Shown: positions 3,810-11,535 of the stretch, in pieces | How the letters are laid out: every line of letters begins with the position of its first letter | Numbering within the stretch: the first letter of the stretch is position 1 | NCBI RefSeq assembly: GCF_000341265.1 | Contig: NZ_ANAE01000101.1 | Span: 1-33,224 of the forward strand | Direction: 5' to 3' | Length of the DNA: 33,224 nucleotides | Origin: Nocardiopsis prasina DSM 43845 | Lineage (GTDB): Bacteria > Actinomycetota > Actinomycetes > Streptosporangiales > Streptosporangiaceae | The notes under the pieces: model-generated | What the model was told of the DNA's origin: nothing | The model's database searches: none | What the model saw: only the letters and a program-made list of their open reading frames with translations | Made by a program: the position numbers and the translations under genes

Positions 3810-3860
3810 TTGCCAGTCGAGTCAGGTGATGAAGATGTCGTTGAGCGCGGAGGAATGTCC

Positions 3861-4625
3861 ATGCACGGCTGTTTCGTGAACTATCGAACCGGCGACGGAG
3901 AGCAGGTCGCGGCACTCATCGGCCGAGAACTCTCCCAGCGGTTCGGTGAGGACGAGGTGTTTAGGGCCAGTGATTCGATTCCGGCCGGAGCCGACTTCGA
4001 ACAGCGGCTTCGAAAAGCTGTGCGAGCGTGCGAGGTGCTGTTGGCGATCGTCGGTCCCCGATGGCTGGAGAAGCGAGAAAGCGACGGGTTGAGGGCGATC
4101 GACGACCCGCGCGACTGGACGCGCTGGGAGATCGCCGCGGCCTTCGAAGCGGGGGTGACGGTGATCCCCGTGCTGAGCGAGTCCACCCCGCGTCTACGTG
4201 CCGCAGACCTGCCCGACGAACTCGCCCCGCTCGCCCGCTGCCAGTACCGGCGGCTGCGTCACCGGAACAGCGGCACCGACCTCGACGAGATCGCCGAGGC
4301 CGTTCTCGTCGCCGCCCCTGAGCTGGAGGAACGAGTGCGCGCCCGCGAAGAGGAACGGGCCACGCAGGAGAGGACAGCGACCGGCACGGGCAACACCATG
4401 GGCGATGTCAGGGGGATCGCTATCCAGGCCAGGGACTACCGAAACGACGGAGTGGTCGTCAACGGCGAACACGCGACCACCCACACCGGAACTGGGGACA
4501 TCAACCAGAACTCCACCGTGAACCACGTCGCGGGAGACCACAACTCGACCGTCAACAACGTGTCCGGTGACCAGCGGGTCAGGGACCAGATCTCCGGCCG
4601 CGTCGACAGGCGGGGGCGCGAGTGA
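3861..4625 (+). CDS. TIR-domain protein with C-terminal amyloid-like adaptor module
   Basis: A 254-residue protein. Residues 1-150 form a TIR domain: first strand GCFVNYRTGDGE, BB-loop-like FRASDSIPAGADF (34-46), a LLAIVGPRWL strand (60-69), DWTRWEIAAAFEAGVTVIPVL (85-105) in which Glu90 is the best candidate for the NAD-cleaving glutamate, and a final helix near 140-150. A charged helical linker (153-171) follows. Next come GDVRGIAIQARDY (181-193) and an Asn/Thr/Gly/Val-rich module (200-234) that recurs in the next protein. Bacterial TIR domains often cleave NAD+ or make cyclic ADP-ribose signals after clustering; that activity here is inferred. The ATG at 3861 was chosen because GGAGG lies 7 bases upstream and TIR strand 1 starts at once; the ATG at 3855 is too close to it. 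The stop overlaps the next start (GTGA). Confidence 0.85.
   Translation: MHGCFVNYRTGDGEQVAALIGRELSQRFGEDEVFRASDSIPAGADFEQRLRKAVRACEVLLAIVGPRWLEKRESDGLRAIDDPRDWTRWEIAAAFEAGVTVIPVLSESTPRLRAADLPDELAPLARCQYRRLRHRNSGTDLDEIAEAVLVAAPELEERVRAREEERATQERTATGTGNTMGDVRGIAIQARDYRNDGVVVNGEHATTHTGTGDINQNSTVNHVAGDHNSTVNNVSGDQRVRDQISGRVDRRGRE
4458..4562 (+). repeat. Shared adaptor module, copy 1 (C-terminus of the TIR protein)
   Basis: Encodes TIR-protein residues 200-234, starting VNGEHATTHTGTGD and continuing INQNSTVNHVAGDHNS. By direct alignment 25 of 35 residues match copy 2 in the next gene, and the DNA is also visibly similar, pointing to duplication or continued exchange. Within the copy there is a rough internal periodicity of N-S-T-V-N and G-D elements, as in short beta-arch or amyloid-forming motifs. 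Confidence 0.8.
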
Positions 4626-6733
4626 CGACCCAGGAGACCGAACGCCCGCAGGGGGAGGCGGGCACGTCCGTGAACGGCGAGCATGCCACCACCCACGCCG
4701 GAACGGGCGACGTCAACCGGGACTCGACCGTCAACCGCGTCGCCGGCGACTGGAACTCCCAGACCAACTACTACCTCAGTCATTCCGACGTCGGCTCCTA
4801 CTCGGCGCGCCTCAGCCTCGATGCCGAAGGCCGGGTGCGCTACGTCAAGGAACGCAGGGTCGTCCCCGGGGACCGGTTGGTCACCCTCCGAGGGCGGTTC
4901 GTCGCGCCGGACGGTTTCCAGGAGGAGGAGTGCCGCGCCGACATCGTCCGCCACGGGGCGGTCGTCCTCAGCGCCTCACCCGGTGACGGAGCCAGGTCCG
5001 CTGCTCTGATGATCCTGGCCCCCAGAAACGCTGAGTCGGACCAGGACGTCCGGGACGATCTCGTCGAGACCGGCGCCGATGGTCGGCCGGTTCTTGGCGT
5101 GGAACCGCTTGAGGACGGGGGCCGCCTGCTCGTCGACCTCACCAGGGAGAGCGGGGTCTCTCCGTTTTCTGTGCGCGATGAGCTGGAGAGGCTGCGGGTA
5201 CGGGGTCACCGCTCGGCAGCCTCCCTCGTGGTGCTGGTGGAGCGCGGGGACGAGGAGGGACTTCCCGAGTCCCTGAAGGACCGGGTGGTGCCCCTCAACC
5301 GTCCCGATCCGCTCGCCGTGTTGGATCGGCACCTCGGCTCCCGGGACGTGCCCGGGTTCTTCCCCGACCGCGCCGCGCACGACGTCCGGGTGTGGGCCGG
5401 CACCGCCTCCATGGGCGAGATTGAGAGGGTTGCCAGGCGCGCGGCGGCCGCTCGCAGGGAAGCCGCGGGCGCCGGGACGATCGACGACTGGCTGAGAGAG
5501 GCCCTGGAGACCGGGGGACCGCCCCCGCCGGAGAACCTGGAGGACACCAAGGGGAGGGCCCGGGCTATTCTGCTCGCCGCCTCACTGATGGAGGGGGCAC
5601 TGGTCGAGCACCTGGCCGTCGGTGTGGAGTCCCTGCTCTCCCAGATCTCCTTCCCCGAAGATGAGACGCCGCTGCTCAACCGCCCGGGATTCCAGGAGGA
5701 GTTGCGCCTCGCCGGGATCGTGGTGGGGCCTGAACGGAGGGTGCGCTTCTCACGCCCGGGGCGCGGGAGAGCGCTGCGCTCGGCGCTCTGGGACGCCCAC
5801 CCCCGACTCCACTCCGCGTTTGGCCAGTGGGTGGACACCCTCATGGCCGCCGAGCCCCTGTCGCACGCGGATCGGGACCGGGTCGCGAAGCGGTGGGCCG
5901 ACCAGACGCTGCGGATCGCGGACCCCGGGGCGGTCTTCCTCCGCGCCGAGTTCTGGTCCGTCCAGCAAAGACGGAGTGCCCCGCAGGCAGCCCTGTTGCT
6001 CACGAAGGTGCTGAGGCACGAGAAGTACGGGCGTGCTGGTCGCCAGTTCCTCTACACGAAGGCGCAGAGCGCGACGCTCACGCCGGGCTGGGGGGAGGTG
6101 CTCGTCGCGGTGTGCGCGCAGGAGTTGGCCGAGACCCATCCGGGGCAGGCCGTCACCAGACTGCACCTGCTCGCACGGAACAAGGAAACGGCGGTGGCCG
6201 ACGCGGCCCGCGCCGAACTGGGCACCCTGGCGATGAAGGCCCCCTTGTACCTCCAACTCCTCCGCAGGGTCTGCGAGCGTCTCCATGACCACGGCTCCAA
6301 GCCGGACTGGCAACACGACACGGAACGGGACCTGCTCTGGGACCTGGCCGATCCTGATCGGATAGCCGACGTCCAGCGAGGCCGACACGACAGCTGCGAA
6401 GTGCGGCGGTGGCTCACCGAGGGGTTGGGTGCCCTCTTCCGCCGTGAACGCGCCTTGACGAAGACCTACGCGGCCCGGTGGATCGGGTCCGGGCGGCCGC
6501 TGATGGAGGTCCTCGTGGACGCCTCCGTCCTCGCGGGGACGCTCCCGCCGCTCTACACCGCCGGGCTGCGCTGGGCCGACGGGGCGGCGACCCCGGAACA
6601 ACGAGAGCTCCACCGGGCGGACGGCGAACTCCTCGTTCGTATGGTCGACGCCGCCGAGGGCCTGGGCGGTCGTGAGTCATCGGTGGCGGGCACCTCGACC
6701 CCGGCTGGAACACCGAGGAGGGAGAACGGATGA
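4622..6733 (+). CDS. Large partner protein with adaptor module and decayed P-loop-like segment (STAND-like, unassigned)
   Basis: A 703-residue protein of no family I can name with certainty. Residues 17-51 carry the module shared with the TIR protein. Residues ~57-112 look like a small beta-rich segment. The stretch 112-132 (HGAVVLSASPGDGARSAALMI) sits where a Walker A strand-loop-helix would be, but lacks the GxxxxGK[ST] signature. RLLVDLT (168-174) and SLVVLVER (201-208) could be the following core strands. From ~260 onward the protein is mainly helical with repeated Leu/Ala/Arg patterns, suggesting a sensor or scaffold. There is no signal peptide or TM segment. The GTG start at 4622 overlaps the TIR stop by 4 bases and its own stop overlaps the next start, so all three genes are probably translationally coupled. 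A sensor/scaffold role for TIR activation is inferred from context. Confidence 0.8.
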   Translation: MTTQETERPQGEAGTSVNGEHATTHAGTGDVNRDSTVNRVAGDWNSQTNYYLSHSDVGSYSARLSLDAEGRVRYVKERRVVPGDRLVTLRGRFVAPDGFQEEECRADIVRHGAVVLSASPGDGARSAALMILAPRNAESDQDVRDDLVETGADGRPVLGVEPLEDGGRLLVDLTRESGVSPFSVRDELERLRVRGHRSAASLVVLVERGDEEGLPESLKDRVVPLNRPDPLAVLDRHLGSRDVPGFFPDRAAHDVRVWAGTASMGEIERVARRAAAARREAAGAGTIDDWLREALETGGPPPPENLEDTKGRARAILLAASLMEGALVEHLAVGVESLLSQISFPEDETPLLNRPGFQEELRLAGIVVGPERRVRFSRPGRGRALRSALWDAHPRLHSAFGQWVDTLMAAEPLSHADRDRVAKRWADQTLRIADPGAVFLRAEFWSVQQRRSAPQAALLLTKVLRHEKYGRAGRQFLYTKAQSATLTPGWGEVLVAVCAQELAETHPGQAVTRLHLLARNKETAVADAARAELGTLAMKAPLYLQLLRRVCERLHDHGSKPDWQHDTERDLLWDLADPDRIADVQRGRHDSCEVRRWLTEGLGALFRRERALTKTYAARWIGSGRPLMEVLVDASVLAGTLPPLYTAGLRWADGAATPEQRELHRADGELLVRMVDAAEGLGGRESSVAGTSTPAGTPRRENG
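4670..4774 (+). repeat. Shared adaptor module, copy 2 (N-terminus of the partner protein)
   Basis: Encodes residues 17-51 of the 703-residue protein, starting VNGEHATTHAGTGD and continuing VNRDSTVNRVAGDWNS. It is the counterpart of the TIR C-terminal copy. The arrangement, with the module at the effector's C-terminus and at the partner's N-terminus in adjacent genes, is the one used by known bacterial amyloid signalling motifs. Confidence 0.8.
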
Positions 6734-7911
6734 GTCCCGCACAGCGACGTGCCGCGATCCTGACGGCGGCGTTGGTCTCGTTGGGAGTGGTCCTGTACCT
6801 GACCATCGACTGGTGGGCCCTGGTGTTGGCGCCGCCTCTGCTGCTCATCGGGGTGCTCGCCCTCATGGTCAACAGCACCAAGGCGGCGACTCCCGGGGAG
6901 ACGGTTCGCCCACCCGACCCGTTCGTGGAGAGCGGACCGAAGAACACCCGGATCAAGGCGGCCCTGGCACCCAGCCAGGACAGGGAGTACCCGTTCGTCC
7001 TCTCCGCCATGGTCTGGTGGAAGTGGGTGGGGGAGCCGGACCACCGGTTGCGCAACCCCGAGGGCCTGGCAAGACAGCTCGTTGTGGAACAGGCCCGACG
7101 GGTGAGCGAGGGGTACCAACCCGAGCAGCACGACATGGCGCTCCACCAGGTCGCGGCGACACTGGGAGTGGCGTCCCACGGGTTCGGCGGAGCCGTGGAG
7201 GTGTGGGCGGAGGACGTCACGCTCGCACTCTCCGAGGAGGACGAGACCCGGCTGGCCCGCATCGCCAAGGCTCGGAAGGAGAGCGTCCTCTGGGAGGTGG
7301 AGCGCTCGGTGGAGTCCGCGAAACGCAGGTACTACGCGGATGACGTGCTGGCGACCCCCGGCAGCGCGATCGTGTGGGACCTGGTGCGAGGGGACGCCGA
7401 CGTCGACCGGACCCATGGACTGATCGAGGTGCTCACCCGGGTCGCGGAGGCCTCGAAGGGTGTTGACTCCGCTGATCTCCTGGATCGGCTGAGGGCGGCC
7501 TCCCCGGAGTCGTTCTCCTTCCTCAACGGGACCGGACTCGCGGGCCGGTTACCGGACGGTTCCGTGTGGGAGTGGCCGGAGGGCCGGGACTGGGCGGACG
7601 AGGTGACGGTCGCCCGGACCTCCGGCGGCGGGGCGTCCACGAGCGCCGAGGGTGTTCTCGACGGAGCGGTCGGAAGGCTCATGGACGAGATCGAGGGCAT
7701 GGAGAACGAGGACCTGCGAGTCCAGCTCGTGGACAGGCTGATCAAGGATTTCGAGTTGGCTTCCCTGACCGGGATCGCGGAGATGATCCGTCGCCGCCAT
7801 CCTCTTGAGCCCGAGCGTGAAGCAGACGGTGACGAGTCGCCCCTGATCGGCCTCACGTATCTCGCCCCGGAAGCCGTTCCCTCTCCCAACGGCAACGGCG
7901 TGCCCCTCTGA
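6730..7911 (+). CDS. Two-TM membrane protein of the TIR operon (paralogue A)
   Basis: A 393-residue protein with two N-terminal TM helices (about 9-26 and 29-48), a short linker and a large soluble part that is probably cytoplasmic. Conserved blocks shared with the gene at 9648-10697 are YPFVLSAMVWWKW...LRNPEGLA, GGAVEVWAEDVTLAL and a following EDETRLARIAKARKESVLWEVE. A later YYADDVLATPGSAIVWDLV block and acidic helices at ~310-355 have no clear counterpart. I have a memory of similar 'LRKDxxLW' membrane proteins in actinomycetes but no function for them. The ATG overlaps the stop of the 703-residue gene (ATGA), placing it as the third gene of the TIR operon. It may tether the complex to the membrane or monitor the envelope; this is inference. 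Confidence 0.75.
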   Translation: MSPAQRRAAILTAALVSLGVVLYLTIDWWALVLAPPLLLIGVLALMVNSTKAATPGETVRPPDPFVESGPKNTRIKAALAPSQDREYPFVLSAMVWWKWVGEPDHRLRNPEGLARQLVVEQARRVSEGYQPEQHDMALHQVAATLGVASHGFGGAVEVWAEDVTLALSEEDETRLARIAKARKESVLWEVERSVESAKRRYYADDVLATPGSAIVWDLVRGDADVDRTHGLIEVLTRVAEASKGVDSADLLDRLRAASPESFSFLNGTGLAGRLPDGSVWEWPEGRDWADEVTVARTSGGGASTSAEGVLDGAVGRLMDEIEGMENEDLRVQLVDRLIKDFELASLTGIAEMIRRRHPLEPEREADGDESPLIGLTYLAPEAVPSPNGNGVPL

Positions 7912-8014: not shown

Positions 8015-9331
8015 TCAGACGGTGCTCAGAGCGGTGACCAGCGTAGGGGAGAGCTCACGCACCGACCGGTGGCCGTGGTGACGCGCCAGGGTCTGGTGCA
8101 GGCGGCGCAGGTCCAGACGCACGGTGGCCGAGTCGACCCCCGACACCTCGGTCAGGAGTTCGGTGGCGACCGCGCAGGAGTTCTCCACCTCCCCCGCCAG
8201 GGCGTGGGCGAGCGCCCGGCGAACCCCGAACCTGGTCCGGGCCCGGATCGCGCTCCCCGGGAGCGACGCGCACTCCCGGTCCAGGATCGCGGCGGCCTCC
8301 TCCACACGGCCCAGATCGACGAGGCACCACCCCCGGGTCACCCCCACCGGATCACTGACGTTCCGCGACCCGAGGATTTCCGGCCCTCCCGCTTCGGAGT
8401 CGCCACGGGTGGCCCGGTCGGCCGCCAGGTGCTCCCGGGCCCGCTCCAGGGCTCTCTCGCAGGACACCAGATCGCCGACCAGGGCGTGGCCCTGTGCCTC
8501 GCGCTTGGCGGCGAGCCCGAGGACCCGGGGAGAGCTCGCCCGGCCCCGTTGCGCGCGCTGGGCCAGAGCGACGGTCTGCGGCCCGTCGTGCGCGTACATG
8601 GTCATCAGGGCCCGCCGCACCAGCGCGTACTCGCCCATCTCGGCGTCGTCACCGGCACCGGCCAGTGACACGGCGGTGTCGGTCCACCACAGGGCCCGCT
8701 GCTCCGATCCGCTCTCCTGAGCCATCCACCCCGCGTACTCGGCGAACCGGGCGGCCAGCCGCAGTGCGGCGCTCCGCTGTGCCGGGGAAGCGGACCTGGC
8801 CAGTTGGCGGAGCGCGTTGGTCTGGACGGCGGCGATCGGGAACACCATCGACGGGGCGACGTGCTGCCCCATGTTCCTCAGCTCGCCCAACTGGACGCGG
8901 AAACTGGCGAGCGCGGGTTCGGCGTCGCCGCCTCCGTCCCGGCCCGGGCGGTCCGGTGCGGCGCCGTTCCCGAGCCCGGCCCCCAGCACGCCCAGCGCGC
9001 TGAGGGAGAGGGCGGTGCGGCGGTCCATTCCGGCGAAACCCGTCTCTCCGTTCGGGGTCATACTCATGAGCCATACCTCCTGGTCGACGCTGGGAGGCTC
9101 CGCCTGGTCGGCCTGGCCGGCCCGTTCCGCGGTGGTGCCCGGGGCGAGTGCGGCCAGCCGCCCGTCGGCTCCCAGAGCCGCGTCGCAGGCCCGCACCAGG
9201 TCCTGGGAGGGGTTCTTCGCCCCGGTCTCCACCTTGCTCAGGTGACTCTTGCTGAAGTGCACCCTCCGGGTCAGCTCATCGAGGGTCATCCCGGCTTCCT
9301 GCCGACGTCGGCGGAGCTCGGCACCGAACAT
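8015..9331 (-). CDS. XRE-family regulator with long helical C-terminal domain
   Basis: A 438-residue protein. Residues 4-58 are a canonical XRE helix-turn-helix (FGAELRRRRQEAGMTLDELT, then HFSKSHLSKVETGAKNPS). The rest is mostly helical with TPR-like Ala/Leu spacing, typical of large actinomycete regulators that sense a ligand or peptide. A Met-Asp-Arg-Arg-Thr-Ala segment followed by a short Leu/Gly-rich run just after residue 100 resembles a twin-arginine motif but is internal, so export is unlikely. The ATG at 9329-9331 was preferred over one 16 codons upstream because AAAGGTGA lies just before it and the HTH begins immediately. The gene lies between the two membrane-protein paralogues and may regulate them. 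Confidence 0.85.
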   Translation of the reverse strand: MFGAELRRRRQEAGMTLDELTRRVHFSKSHLSKVETGAKNPSQDLVRACDAALGADGRLAALAPGTTAERAGQADQAEPPSVDQEVWLMSMTPNGETGFAGMDRRTALSLSALGVLGAGLGNGAAPDRPGRDGGGDAEPALASFRVQLGELRNMGQHVAPSMVFPIAAVQTNALRQLARSASPAQRSAALRLAARFAEYAGWMAQESGSEQRALWWTDTAVSLAGAGDDAEMGEYALVRRALMTMYAHDGPQTVALAQRAQRGRASSPRVLGLAAKREAQGHALVGDLVSCERALERAREHLAADRATRGDSEAGGPEILGSRNVSDPVGVTRGWCLVDLGRVEEAAAILDRECASLPGSAIRARTRFGVRRALAHALAGEVENSCAVATELLTEVSGVDSATVRLDLRRLHQTLARHHGHRSVRELSPTLVTALSTV

Positions 9332-9647
9332 TCTTGTCACCTTTCGGGGGGTGGAGCGGGGGTGTTCCGGTGCCGTCACCAGAGGCGGAGGGAAACGCGT
9401 CGGGGGCGGGTGCTCGGGGGCACCGGTCGGGCACTGGGGTCATATCCGGCCCGTCGAGCGGGGAAACGGGGACCGGGTCCAGGGCGCCCCTGCGGGGACA
9501 GGGGGCCCGGAGGGGGAGAAAGCGGGCCCTGAGCGGGATCCGAGTGGGGTCTGACTCGGCGTTGGTGGCGCGTTCACGCCGGTCTTCGGGCACACTGGCC
9601 TGAGGAACCTTCCTTCCGAACCCCTGCCCCGCACGAGGAGACACCCC
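9332..9647. other. Divergent intergenic region, XRE gene / membrane protein B
   Basis: This 316-bp region is extremely G-rich on the plus strand and was searched for genes without result. An inverted repeat CCGAGT-8-ACTCGG (9540-9559) lies about 90 bp before the membrane-protein start and could be a regulator site. A minus-strand TATGAC hexamer near 9440 might be an XRE-gene -10 element, without a recognisable -35. Confidence 0.4.
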
Positions 9648-10697
9648 GTGGCCACCTTCGCCCGTATCCGCCTGGCGGCGGTCATCGTGGTGTTGATCGT
9701 CCCGGCGGTGCTGTTTCCGCTGGCCGGAGGATGGACGCTGCTCTGGTTGCCCGGCGCGATGGCGCTGCTGGGCCTGGCCCTGGCGCGTCCGCAGCTGCTC
9801 GCGGCCGCGCTGGAGTCGGTGACGGGCGGTGGCGGGGCCGACGAGGGCGAGCAGCGGGAGGAGACCGACGTGCGAGGTTCTCGGGACGAACTCCGGGACC
9901 GCTCGGATCAGGGGGACGAGCCCGCGCCCGTCGAGGCACCCCGCGGCCAGAGCGGGACCCGCGGTGTCCGCACGCGTCGGATCGAGCTTCCGAGCGCTCT
10001 GGACGACTACACCTTCGGCTTCTCCGCGCTGGTTCACTGGCGGTGGGCCCACCGGGTCGACCTGAGTCTGCGCAACCCGGCGGGCCCGGCGGTCCGCTCG
10101 GTCGTGCTGCGCGCCCGTGAGATCCTGCGCGACGCGCGCCCCGGGGAGCGGGCGCTGGCCGAGAGTGAACTCGAGTCGGTGTTCGCGGTGGAGGAGCCGG
10201 TCGCCGGGGGCACCATCCAGGTGTGGGCGGAGAACGTCCGCCTGGAACTGGACGACGAGGACGAGGAACGCCTGGGCCGCATGGCGCACCTGCGCAAGGA
10301 CCGTGCGCTGTGGGTCGCGGAGCAGGAGGCCGCGCGGGTCCGCGAGTCGCTGTCCGACGATCCCGGGCTCGAACTCGACCTGGAACCGGAACCTCGTTTC
10401 CCCCTTCCGGCGCACGACCTGTCCGACCTGTTGGAGGAGCCCGAGCCCGCCGTTCCCACCGCTGGCAGCGGGGTGGACGAGGAGGGCTACGAGAGCTACT
10501 GGTGGCCCGCCGAGCAGGACGCGGAGGAGGGCGGCATGGAGCAGGACGTCCAGGTCGCCATCCTGCGCGGGCTCATCGACTCCGTCGAGGGGGAGAGCGA
10601 ACGCGCGGCGTTCGTCCGCGAGCAGGTGGAGATCCTGGAGCGGAGCGGCTTCCCCGACGTCGCCGAACGCATCCAGTCCGTCTACCCCGAGCGGTAG
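9648..10697 (+). CDS. Two-TM membrane protein (paralogue B)
   Basis: A 349-residue protein with two N-terminal TM helices (about 8-26 and 29-47), a disordered acidic linker (~58-110) and a soluble domain. It shares three blocks with the TIR-operon membrane protein: YTFGFSALVHWRW...LRNPAGPA, GGTIQVWAENVRLEL and DEDEERLGRMAHLRKDRALW. An EQDVQVAILRGLIDSVEG helix near the C-terminus parallels the acidic C-terminal helices of paralogue A. Start: GTG at 9648 with GAGGAG 7 bases upstream. It stands alone rather than in an operon and faces the divergent XRE gene. The last codon is 10 bp from the end of the convergent SMR gene. Function unknown. Confidence 0.75.
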   Translation: MATFARIRLAAVIVVLIVPAVLFPLAGGWTLLWLPGAMALLGLALARPQLLAAALESVTGGGGADEGEQREETDVRGSRDELRDRSDQGDEPAPVEAPRGQSGTRGVRTRRIELPSALDDYTFGFSALVHWRWAHRVDLSLRNPAGPAVRSVVLRAREILRDARPGERALAESELESVFAVEEPVAGGTIQVWAENVRLELDDEDEERLGRMAHLRKDRALWVAEQEAARVRESLSDDPGLELDLEPEPRFPLPAHDLSDLLEEPEPAVPTAGSGVDEEGYESYWWPAEQDAEEGGMEQDVQVAILRGLIDSVEGESERAAFVREQVEILERSGFPDVAERIQSVYPER

Positions 10698-10707
10698 GCT
10701 TCGCTCC

Positions 10708-11031
10708 TCAACCGCCGAGCTGGAGCGCCAGGACCCCGGCCACGGTCAGCGCGACCCCGGCGACCTGGACGCGCGTGATCCGGTCGCGCAGCGCGAACAC
10801 CCCGATGAGGGTGACGGCCACGATGCCCACGGCCGCCCACACGGCGTAGGCCACACCCAGCCCCAGCCCCTCCTCCAGGGCCAGGGCGAACAGGTAGTAG
10901 GCGCCGACGATGGTCACCACGGTGACCGCGGTGGGGACGGGGCGGGTGAACCCGTCCGAGTACCGGCTGGCGATCGCACCCGCGACCTCCAGGGTGATCG
11001 TTCCGGCAAGGAAGAGATAGGCGAGGGACAC
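10708..11031 (-). CDS. SMR-family multidrug/cation efflux protein (first of a divergent pair)
   Basis: A 107-residue protein with the four TM helices of the small multidrug resistance family. The essential membrane-embedded glutamate is in TM1 (Glu15 in TLEVAGAIASRYSDGFTR), and the TM3 signature is GVAYAVWAAVGIV. SMR proteins exchange protons for quaternary ammonium compounds, guanidinium or polyamines as dimers in the inner membrane. The GTG at 11029-11031 has AGGAGG 6 bases upstream and gives the usual family length; an upstream start would add nine residues unlike the family. It is divergent from a second SMR gene and shares its control region. Confidence 0.9.
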   Translation of the reverse strand: MSLAYLFLAGTITLEVAGAIASRYSDGFTRPVPTAVTVVTIVGAYYLFALALEEGLGLGVAYAVWAAVGIVAVTLIGVFALRDRITRVQVAGVALTVAGVLALQLGG

Positions 11032-11061
11032 GCGTCCTCCTGAAGGTCTCTGACACACAAG

Positions 11062-11083
11062 TACTTGAACGATGGTTCAAGTA
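11062..11083. promoter_or_regulatory. TetR-type operator 1
   Basis: A perfect inverted repeat with 9-bp arms, TACTTGAAC-GATG-GTTCAAGTA. It overlaps the predicted -35 box (TTGAAC, 11065-11070) of the promoter for the rightward SMR gene and lies in the leader of the leftward one. It matches operator 2 in its GAAC-GATR-GTTC core. The likely binder is the TetR protein encoded downstream. Confidence 0.7.
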
Positions 11084-11093
11084 GATCTACGAT
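11065..11093 (+). promoter_or_regulatory. Candidate promoter of SMR gene 2
   Basis: TTGAAC (11065-11070), a 17-base spacer and TACGAT (11088-11093). Each hexamer matches four of six consensus bases. Transcription would begin near 11100, leaving a leader of about 70 bases. Confidence 0.4.
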
Positions 11094-11096
11094 CAG

Positions 11097-11125
11097 AGTA
11101 CACACCTATCTGAACGATAGTTCAA
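11097..11125 (-). promoter_or_regulatory. Candidate promoter of SMR gene 1
   Basis: On the minus strand TTGAAC (11125-11120), a 17-base spacer and TGTACT (11102-11097). It is interleaved with the plus-strand promoter, so the two RNA polymerases would face each other and both would be covered by the two operators. Confidence 0.4.
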
Positions 11126-11127
11126 GT
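11108..11127. promoter_or_regulatory. TetR-type operator 2
   Basis: The GAAC-GATA-GTTC core (TGAAC/GTTCA arms) repeats the layout of operator 1, with a weaker left arm. Centre-to-centre distance to operator 1 is 45 bp. The outer flanks of the two sites form a perfect 13-bp inverted repeat: CAAGTACTTGAAC at 11058-11070 and GTTCAAGTACTTG at 11120-11132. It covers the -35 box of the leftward promoter. Confidence 0.6.
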
Positions 11128-11169
11128 ACTTGGTCGCGCAGGAGCGGCCGACGACCGAGGGGAACGAAC

Positions 11170-11535
11170 ATGGCCTGGCTCTACCTTGCGGCGGCGCTCG
11201 CGTCCGAGATGATCGGTGCCACCGCCACCGGGCTCTCCGAGGGCTTCACCCGCCCGATCGCGGTCCTGGTGGCGGTTCCGGCCGTCCTCGTCGCCTACTT
11301 CCTGCTCGCCCTCGCCCTCAGGCGCGGCATGGCCGTGGGCGTCGCCTACGGGGTGTGGACCGCCTCCGGAGTGGCGATCGTCGCCCTCCTCGGGGTGGTC
11401 CTGCTCGGCGACGAGCTCACTCCGGTACAGGTCGGTGGCCTGGCCCTGGTGATGGCCGGCGCACTCGCCATGGAACTGGGCCGGGCCCGCGCGAACGAGG
11501 AGCCCGAGGCCCCAAGGGAGCGCGTCCGGGCCTGA
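11170..11535 (+). CDS. SMR-family multidrug/cation efflux protein (second of a divergent pair)
   Basis: A 121-residue SMR protein with four TM helices, the TM1 glutamate at Glu13 (ASEMIGATATGLSEGFTR) and the TM3 block GVAYGVWTASGVAIV. It has a charged C-terminal tail of about 17 residues that the first SMR protein lacks. The ATG at 11170 follows AGGGGAAC at good spacing. The two proteins differ in tail and loop charge, as expected for subunits of a heterodimeric SMR pump, but homodimers are equally possible. The tetR gene begins 40 bp downstream and probably belongs to the same transcript, giving negative feedback. Confidence 0.9.
   Translation: MAWLYLAAALASEMIGATATGLSEGFTRPIAVLVAVPAVLVAYFLLALALRRGMAVGVAYGVWTASGVAIVALLGVVLLGDELTPVQVGGLALVMAGALAMELGRARANEEPEAPRERVRA

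Follow-up and report, generated by a model that had tools for sequence, protein, structure and literature searches.

In the actinomycete Nocardiopsis prasina DSM 43845, a gene for a TIR-domain protein runs directly into a gene for a much larger protein, and the question arises of what connects the two products. Both genes lie on the forward strand of a stretch of 33,224 nucleotides (contig NZ_ANAE01000101.1, positions 1 to 33,224; hereafter the window), with the TIR effector of 254 residues encoded at 3861..4625 and its partner of 703 residues, a STAND/AAA+ relative, at 4622..6733. An earlier note, made from the letters of this DNA, had described the same short module in both proteins and had proposed a candidate amyloid-type TIR signalling system. 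We consider it fairly probable that the two proteins form a compact NLR-type signalosome in which a homotypic module would join the TIR effector to the STAND sensor, probably in an amyloid-type manner and with NAD+ cleavage as the output.

On recomputation, residues 200-234 of the TIR protein (effector copy, 4458..4562, forward strand) and residues 17-51 of the partner (sensor copy, 4670..4774, forward strand) were identical at 25 of 35 positions without a gap, exactly as the earlier note had counted by hand, and this is the best ungapped 35-residue match between both proteins. The reported gene overlap of 4 bases is likewise there (GTGA, 4622-4625); an alternative TIR start is possible at an in-frame ATG at 3855. 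The Smith-Waterman score is 141; when the partner was shuffled 1000 times no score exceeded 78, and when only the modules were shuffled, 2000 times, none exceeded 56, so that composition does not explain the match. A module query of 48 residues found two sites only in the genome (240 contigs; E 8.1e-26 and 9.5e-12) and no further copy up to E 10, and on this ground a multi-copy linker is not supported. The form of 35 residues is that of Nocardiopsis; elsewhere a common core of about 12-15 residues is seen by eye. By eye the module is also short and rich in Gly, Asn and Thr, and the region is probably disordered, since the predicted model has low confidence there. Just upstream of the module, the TIR tail contains a further conserved segment, NTMGDVRGIAIQARDY (residues 178-193, 4392..4439, forward strand), which has no counterpart in the partner in the alignments; a loose pattern of it matches 32/60 TIR tails and 1/60 partner N-termini.

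The relation between module and partner was analysed in loci from a TIR-alignment scan of named genomes, which covers the best 80 of 255 relatives; weaker relatives are unrepresented and many of the 80 loci are closely related. The relatives come from Nocardiopsis, Streptomyces, Kitasatospora, Actinomadura, Planomonospora, Lentzea and other genera. A member of the partner family follows the TIR gene directly in 61 loci, in 55 of them with its start at -4 (longest frame). With L155 left out of the tail count, the core xTGxG was found in 59/60 TIR tails with a partner, in 0/19 tails without one and in 60/60 partner N-termini (rates in shuffled sequences 0.38, 0.13 and 0.15). A stricter core pattern gave 59/60, 0/19 and 54/60, with shuffled rates of 0.10, 0.03 and 0.03. 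The co-occurrence of module and partner, on which the earlier note could have failed, thus holds, and so does the layout with one copy at the effector C-terminus and one at the STAND N-terminus. Fisher's exact test for core versus partner presence gave a p-value of 2e-17, which is too strong given the kinship among the loci.

Every TIR tail was scored against every partner N-terminus (59 loci and the window; L139 and L155, whose downstream reading is unresolved, were left out). Own pairs scored 66.5 and other pairs 46.1 (60 pairs); in 30 non-redundant loci the values were 62.9 and 44.6, and none of 20000 permutations reached the own-pair excess. The excess was also found within subsets: it was reached by 4/20000 permutations in Streptomycetaceae (17 loci), by 0/20000 in Nocardiopsis (8) and by 0/20000 when Nocardiopsis was removed (22). 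Two controls had no own-pair effect: in one, TIR residues 81-150 took the place of the tail, and in the other, partner residues 76-150 took the place of the N-terminus. Furthermore, in 27/30 pairs the score exceeded that of composition shuffles at the 1% level or better.

In related loci the effector or the sensor changes together with the motif. An Actinophytocola locus (L128, 3429-6573) encodes a TIR protein that is about 50% identical to that of the window and carries a different, VYQAGRD-type tail motif, which is matched, at a score of 77 vs 23.8 (0/1000 shuffles), by the N-terminus of an NB-ARC-TPR protein encoded upstream; the P-loop of the latter (GMAGIGKT) looks intact. Two effectors that start with DVKDFS or DIKDFS and are encoded beside partner relatives (L074:5122-5913, reverse strand; L085:5695-6795, forward strand) each share a private motif with the sensor N-terminus (0/500 each); by eye they are cyclase-like, and they have no Pfam match. 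In a further Nocardiopsis locus (L175:7565-8158, reverse strand) a small effector and the following P-loop protein, NB-ARC-like by eye, share DHVDQRGAQARRDVIG (0/1000), and the tail of this effector also holds a segment that resembles NTMGDVRGIAIQARDY.

The TIR domain spans residues 5-135 of the effector and is matched by the Pfam family TIR_2 (E 4.4e-10) and by SARM1 TIR domains (best 9.4e-5). Its catalytic-type Glu 90 is invariant in 14/14 aligned proteins, and a pattern search found the Glu of the catalytic motif in 60/60 TIRs; judged from sequence, the effector is likely an NAD-cutting enzyme. Two known TIR types were rejected: the FxsC type reached 18.9 bits against a cut-off of 130, and for Thoeris NCBIfam ThcB4 gave 22.7 bits against 220 and PADLOC ThsB E 0.048, in a model that gives no cut-off.

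The partner consists of a low-confidence N-terminus (residues 1-77), a degenerate NTPase domain (about 78-300) and a remaining part in which secondary structure indicates a winged-helix-like part followed by a helical solenoid (about 394-680). The predicted structure has an AAA+/STAND NTPase fold with superstructure repeats; the best structure match of the model is FtsH, and the anti-phage STANDs Avs3 and Avs5 are among the matches with low TM-score, in VIA-align lists that consist mainly of AAA+ and SPFH rows and so barely cover other parts of the models. That an intact NTPase signature is missing, as the earlier note had stated, was borne out: the Walker A segment SASPGDGARSAA (residues 117-128, 4970..5005, forward strand) has the degenerate P-loop SASPGDGARS, and in 35 family members the column of the Walker A Lys contains R 24, A 7, L 3 and K 1 times. 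The nSTAND3 profile (PF20720) matches 23/35 family members at E <=0.5 (best 1.9e-6) and does not match the window partner itself, and PADLOC models matched neither the partner nor the SPFH-type proteins described below. With its Walker A Lys not intact, the partner is classed only as a degenerate STAND relative. Its family has matches in 36/394 genomes of the class and in 13/137 genera, weak partial matches counted.

The gene set reaches to about 9379 and thus beyond the pair of TIR and partner. The third gene (6730..7911, forward strand) overlaps the partner gene by 4 bases (ATGA) and encodes a membrane SPFH-fold protein of 393 residues with two transmembrane-like helices at the N-terminus (3-25 and 29-51) and a predicted SPFH-fold domain at about 70-205; no SPFH model of Pfam matched any of 26 members of this family at E 0.5. 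It is followed on the reverse strand by a gene for an NsdA-family helix-turn-helix regulator (8015..9379; NCBIfam NsdA_fam_reg, 157 bits against a cut-off of 75). The SPFH-fold gene comes after the partner gene in 60/61 loci, and an NsdA-like gene is present in 59/61; the exceptions (L094 for the former, L094 and L133 for the latter) are at contig ends. The regulator gene lies upstream on the TIR strand in 49 loci (within 400 bases in 48/49) and on the other strand in 10. In the 19 TIR loci without a partner, the third gene was not found within the stretch examined, save for a TIR fusion in L147, and an NsdA-like gene was found in two, L105 and L112. Of these 19 TIRs, 14 have another C-terminal domain (9 from Lentzea, 3 from Kibdelosporangium, and those from Actinosynnema and Rhodococcus), and the others are three short Kitasatospora TIRs, L128 and L147. 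Of 20 further partner loci that were examined in detail, 14 have the TIR gene and 19 have an SPFH-type gene as neighbour of the partner, which indicates that the SPFH gene goes with the STAND.

A few loci of these families are worth recording for themselves. In nine Lentzea loci (L110, L111, L114, L115, L118, L135, L136, L142 and L154) and their relatives, a C-terminal domain of about 300 residues replaces the module tail. The Kitasatospora loci L105 and L112 encode short TIRs with no module at the end and no partner found, with the NsdA-like gene directly upstream, and in Streptomyces benahoarensis (L147:5122-6762) a TIR domain is fused directly to an SPFH-type domain. In Nocardiopsis eucommiae (L025/L088) the reading frame is broken in the partner gene, the regulator gene and the acyltransferase gene, either by decay or by sequencing indels. 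The unit in the window is flanked by a gene for a second SPFH-like paralogue of 349 residues (9648..10697, forward strand), which was not counted as a member; within the genus it is matched in 40/40 genomes, with a best E of 5e-32 in the weakest case, and it is a possible source of the third gene. At 10708-11535 a divergent pair of small multidrug resistance (SMR)-type genes beside a TetR-type regulator, seen by eye, is ordinary.

Within Nocardiopsis a full-length TIR match (E < 1e-100) was found in 11/40 genomes and a tail-only match in two more. In nine relatives and the window, the module is present in 10/10 TIRs and 10/10 partners, and the partner starts with the same 4-base overlap. In L173, from a genome that lacks the unit, the acyltransferase gene directly adjoins the SPFH-like paralogue, which gives an empty site; in another such genome (L172) a frame like the start of the NsdA gene remains by eye, and tblastn gave no match at 1e-5. 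Because of the empty site and the patchy distribution in the genus, the block of TIR, partner, SPFH and regulator genes seems to be gained and lost as one piece. A phage or plasmid home was rejected: the partner had no phage match (the TIR was not searched against phages), and the plasmid matches, in one record in the case of the partner and in five in that of the TIR, were all partial.

Taken together, the gene set looks like a bacterial immune switch, for which we propose the following course of events. The STAND protein would sense a trigger, probably via its helical solenoid, and oligomerise on the AAA+-like domain. Its flexible N-terminal module would then serve as a template for the matching C-terminal module of the effector, with a cross-beta (amyloid-type) stack as the probable form, and the clustering of TIR domains would switch on NAD+ cleavage, leading to growth arrest or death of the infected cell. 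Anchoring or caging of this assembly at the membrane may fall to the SPFH protein, and expression of the unit may be under the control of the NsdA-like regulator.

Several observations weigh against this signalosome. The own partner was the top match of a TIR tail in just 6/30 loci (median rank 4.5) and, therefore, pair specificity is relative. Three pairs (L098, L101 and L153) failed against shuffles at 1%; the tail of L101 looks out of frame. Neighbouring effectors and sensors in L034 and L037 have no significant common motif (32/500 and 163/500), no effector could be assigned in the other distant partner loci, and six distant relatives of the partner (L032-L037) have neither a TIR nor an SPFH gene nearby. 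Since the P-loop Lys is missing in 34/35 family members, it is doubtful that the partner acts as an ATP-driven switch. Codon identity at identical residues was 0.57 in own pairs and 0.51 in others (reached in 51/5000; L101 left out, window added), and some gene conversion, in part, or codon bias may lie behind this excess. Finally, when a small number of published amyloid peptides were compared, the likeness was mostly at chance. In 30 TIR tails and 30 N-termini, respectively, matches at 1% numbered 2 and 4 for sigma, 2 and 1 for sigma-like, 0 and 3 for BASS3 and 0 and 1 for BASS3-like, the BASS comparison being one BASS3 and one BASS3-like peptide. The fungal sigma motif (NACHT_sigma, PF17106) has similar letters, yet it was rejected, as its matches are below the curated cut-off: 2/7 typed segments gave weak matches (17.8 bits, E 0.0037, and 15.5 bits, E 0.019, where 27.6 bits are required), and 0/296 genomes had a match above it. 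The reading of the earlier note is partly supported, by the layout in overlapping genes, the own-pair excess and the degenerate NTPase signature, and the STAND/AAA+ fold of the partner and its SPFH-fold and NsdA-like companions go beyond it; the likeness to amyloid motifs rests on layout and not on letters.

These points bear on a second explanation, by which the module would be a homotypic docking motif and the STAND would hold or present the TIR in a soluble, non-amyloid complex with no cross-beta stack. The own-pair excess fits any homotypic interface, significant likeness to the published amyloid peptides was not found, and coupling by effector-associated domains (EAD), in the accessible part of its description, follows this very principle, with the same layout and with adjacent copies closest to each other (PMC7159879). 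The module, short, rich in Gly, Asn and Thr and of low model confidence, is nevertheless unlike a folded domain, and its layout also matches that of the amyloid signalosomes in the literature; neither of these points settles the matter, and we regard a purely docking role as possible, if rather unlikely. Similarly tentative is the idea that the unit acts as a developmental or stress switch, built around the NsdA regulator and the SPFH membrane protein, and not in anti-phage immunity. The NsdA-family gene is almost constant in the partner loci, and according to the available text of PMC12243394 an NsdA protein negatively regulates antibiotic biosynthesis; a patchy distribution with an empty site, and a TIR beside a STAND with Avs-type matches, speak against such a switch.

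A bolder extension of the proposed signalosome strikes us as improbable: a membrane-anchored SPFH cage would house the TIR-STAND NADase signalosome, the STAND, with ATP hydrolysis lost, would serve as a one-way trigger for motif templating, and co-evolving short tags would keep specificity. Bacteria would then combine the parts that also make up the vault (a shell that contains SPFH, with STAND and TIR-like NADase in TEP1) and HflK/C-FtsH. Very improbable is that mainly tandem duplication and gene conversion, acting on overlapping genes, made the copies alike and that they play no part in binding: they are indeed adjacent, with DNA identical at 77/105 positions and the small codon excess mentioned above, but that excess could come from same-genome codon bias, own pairs are not expected to be more alike than others after independent divergence since an ancient duplication, the layout persists from genus to genus, the core is absent where the partner is missing, and other effector-sensor pairs share other motifs at the same positions.

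Among known systems, the nearest are the two-gene signalosomes of the bacterial amyloid signalling sequence (BASS)/NLR type, which were reportedly described by Dyrka et al. in 2020. In NLR amyloid signalosomes, according to the accessible parts of the papers cited in this comparison, oligomerisation of the sensor presents a motif that templates the motif of the effector (PMC7889193, PMC8086366, PMC12261475, PMC9815663). Like the unit described here, BASS/NLR signalosomes have the motif at the effector C-terminus and the sensor N-terminus, in adjacent or overlapping genes, and TIR effectors have been reported there as a less common kind; BASS families were, however, defined from Bell-domain effectors, whereas here a TIR is combined with a degenerate-P-loop STAND, an SPFH-fold gene and an NsdA-like regulator. 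STANDs of the Avs type (Avs3, and Avs5 with nSTAND3, PMC12931631) resemble the partner in having a STAND NTPase and a repeat-type C-terminus, and Avs5 uses the NAD-targeting effector Sir2, comparable to the predicted NAD-cutting TIR (PMC12931631). Unlike in Avs, the effector is on a separate protein coupled through the common motif, the Walker A Lys is lost, and an SPFH-type neighbour is present. The iSTAND and iSTAND2 systems with EAD share with the unit a degenerate STAND as the proposed sensor and the same adaptor on sensor and effector of neighbouring genes (PMC7159879, PMC8195603), but they are MoxR-vWA ternary systems with folded EAD or Death-like domains, in contrast to a short, probably disordered motif. 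Thoeris likewise has a TIR protein in a putative defence unit; here the adjacent partner is a STAND, and the ThsB and ThcB4 matches are weak. The vault is a shell with an SPFH-like shoulder. In a preprint, as far as its text is accessible, the TIR-like NADase of TEP1 sits inside this shell (PMC13174449). HflK/C-FtsH and vault/TEP1 place SPFH beside AAA+ or TIR-like parts, as the unit places an SPFH fold beside an AAA+-fold protein and a TIR domain; this is a parallel of parts that implies no homology of the assemblies. Among the matches listed, in a literature search short on subscription papers, no description of the TIR-STAND-SPFH-NsdA set was found, in keeping with the suggestion of the earlier note that the system could be undescribed. 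Nor did the 12 of 2096 papers listed for a link between SPFH proteins and such sensors give a precedent for an NLR-like sensor with an SPFH-fold membrane protein as its neighbour; the top paper has SPFH only among its references. A 2021 review, in its accessible part, still left open what predicted amyloid signalling leads to in filamentous bacteria (PMC7889193), and the unit provides a case in culturable Streptomyces and Nocardiopsis that recurs, is syntenic and can be tested: the predicted activity of its effector can be measured (NAD+ loss), its sensor lacks the Walker A lysine, and natural module pairs, matched and mismatched, serve as built-in controls. Compared with NLR/BASS-type signalling, the new features are the SPFH-fold membrane protein, which is put next to an NLR-like sensor, the degenerate-P-loop STAND and the NsdA-like regulator.

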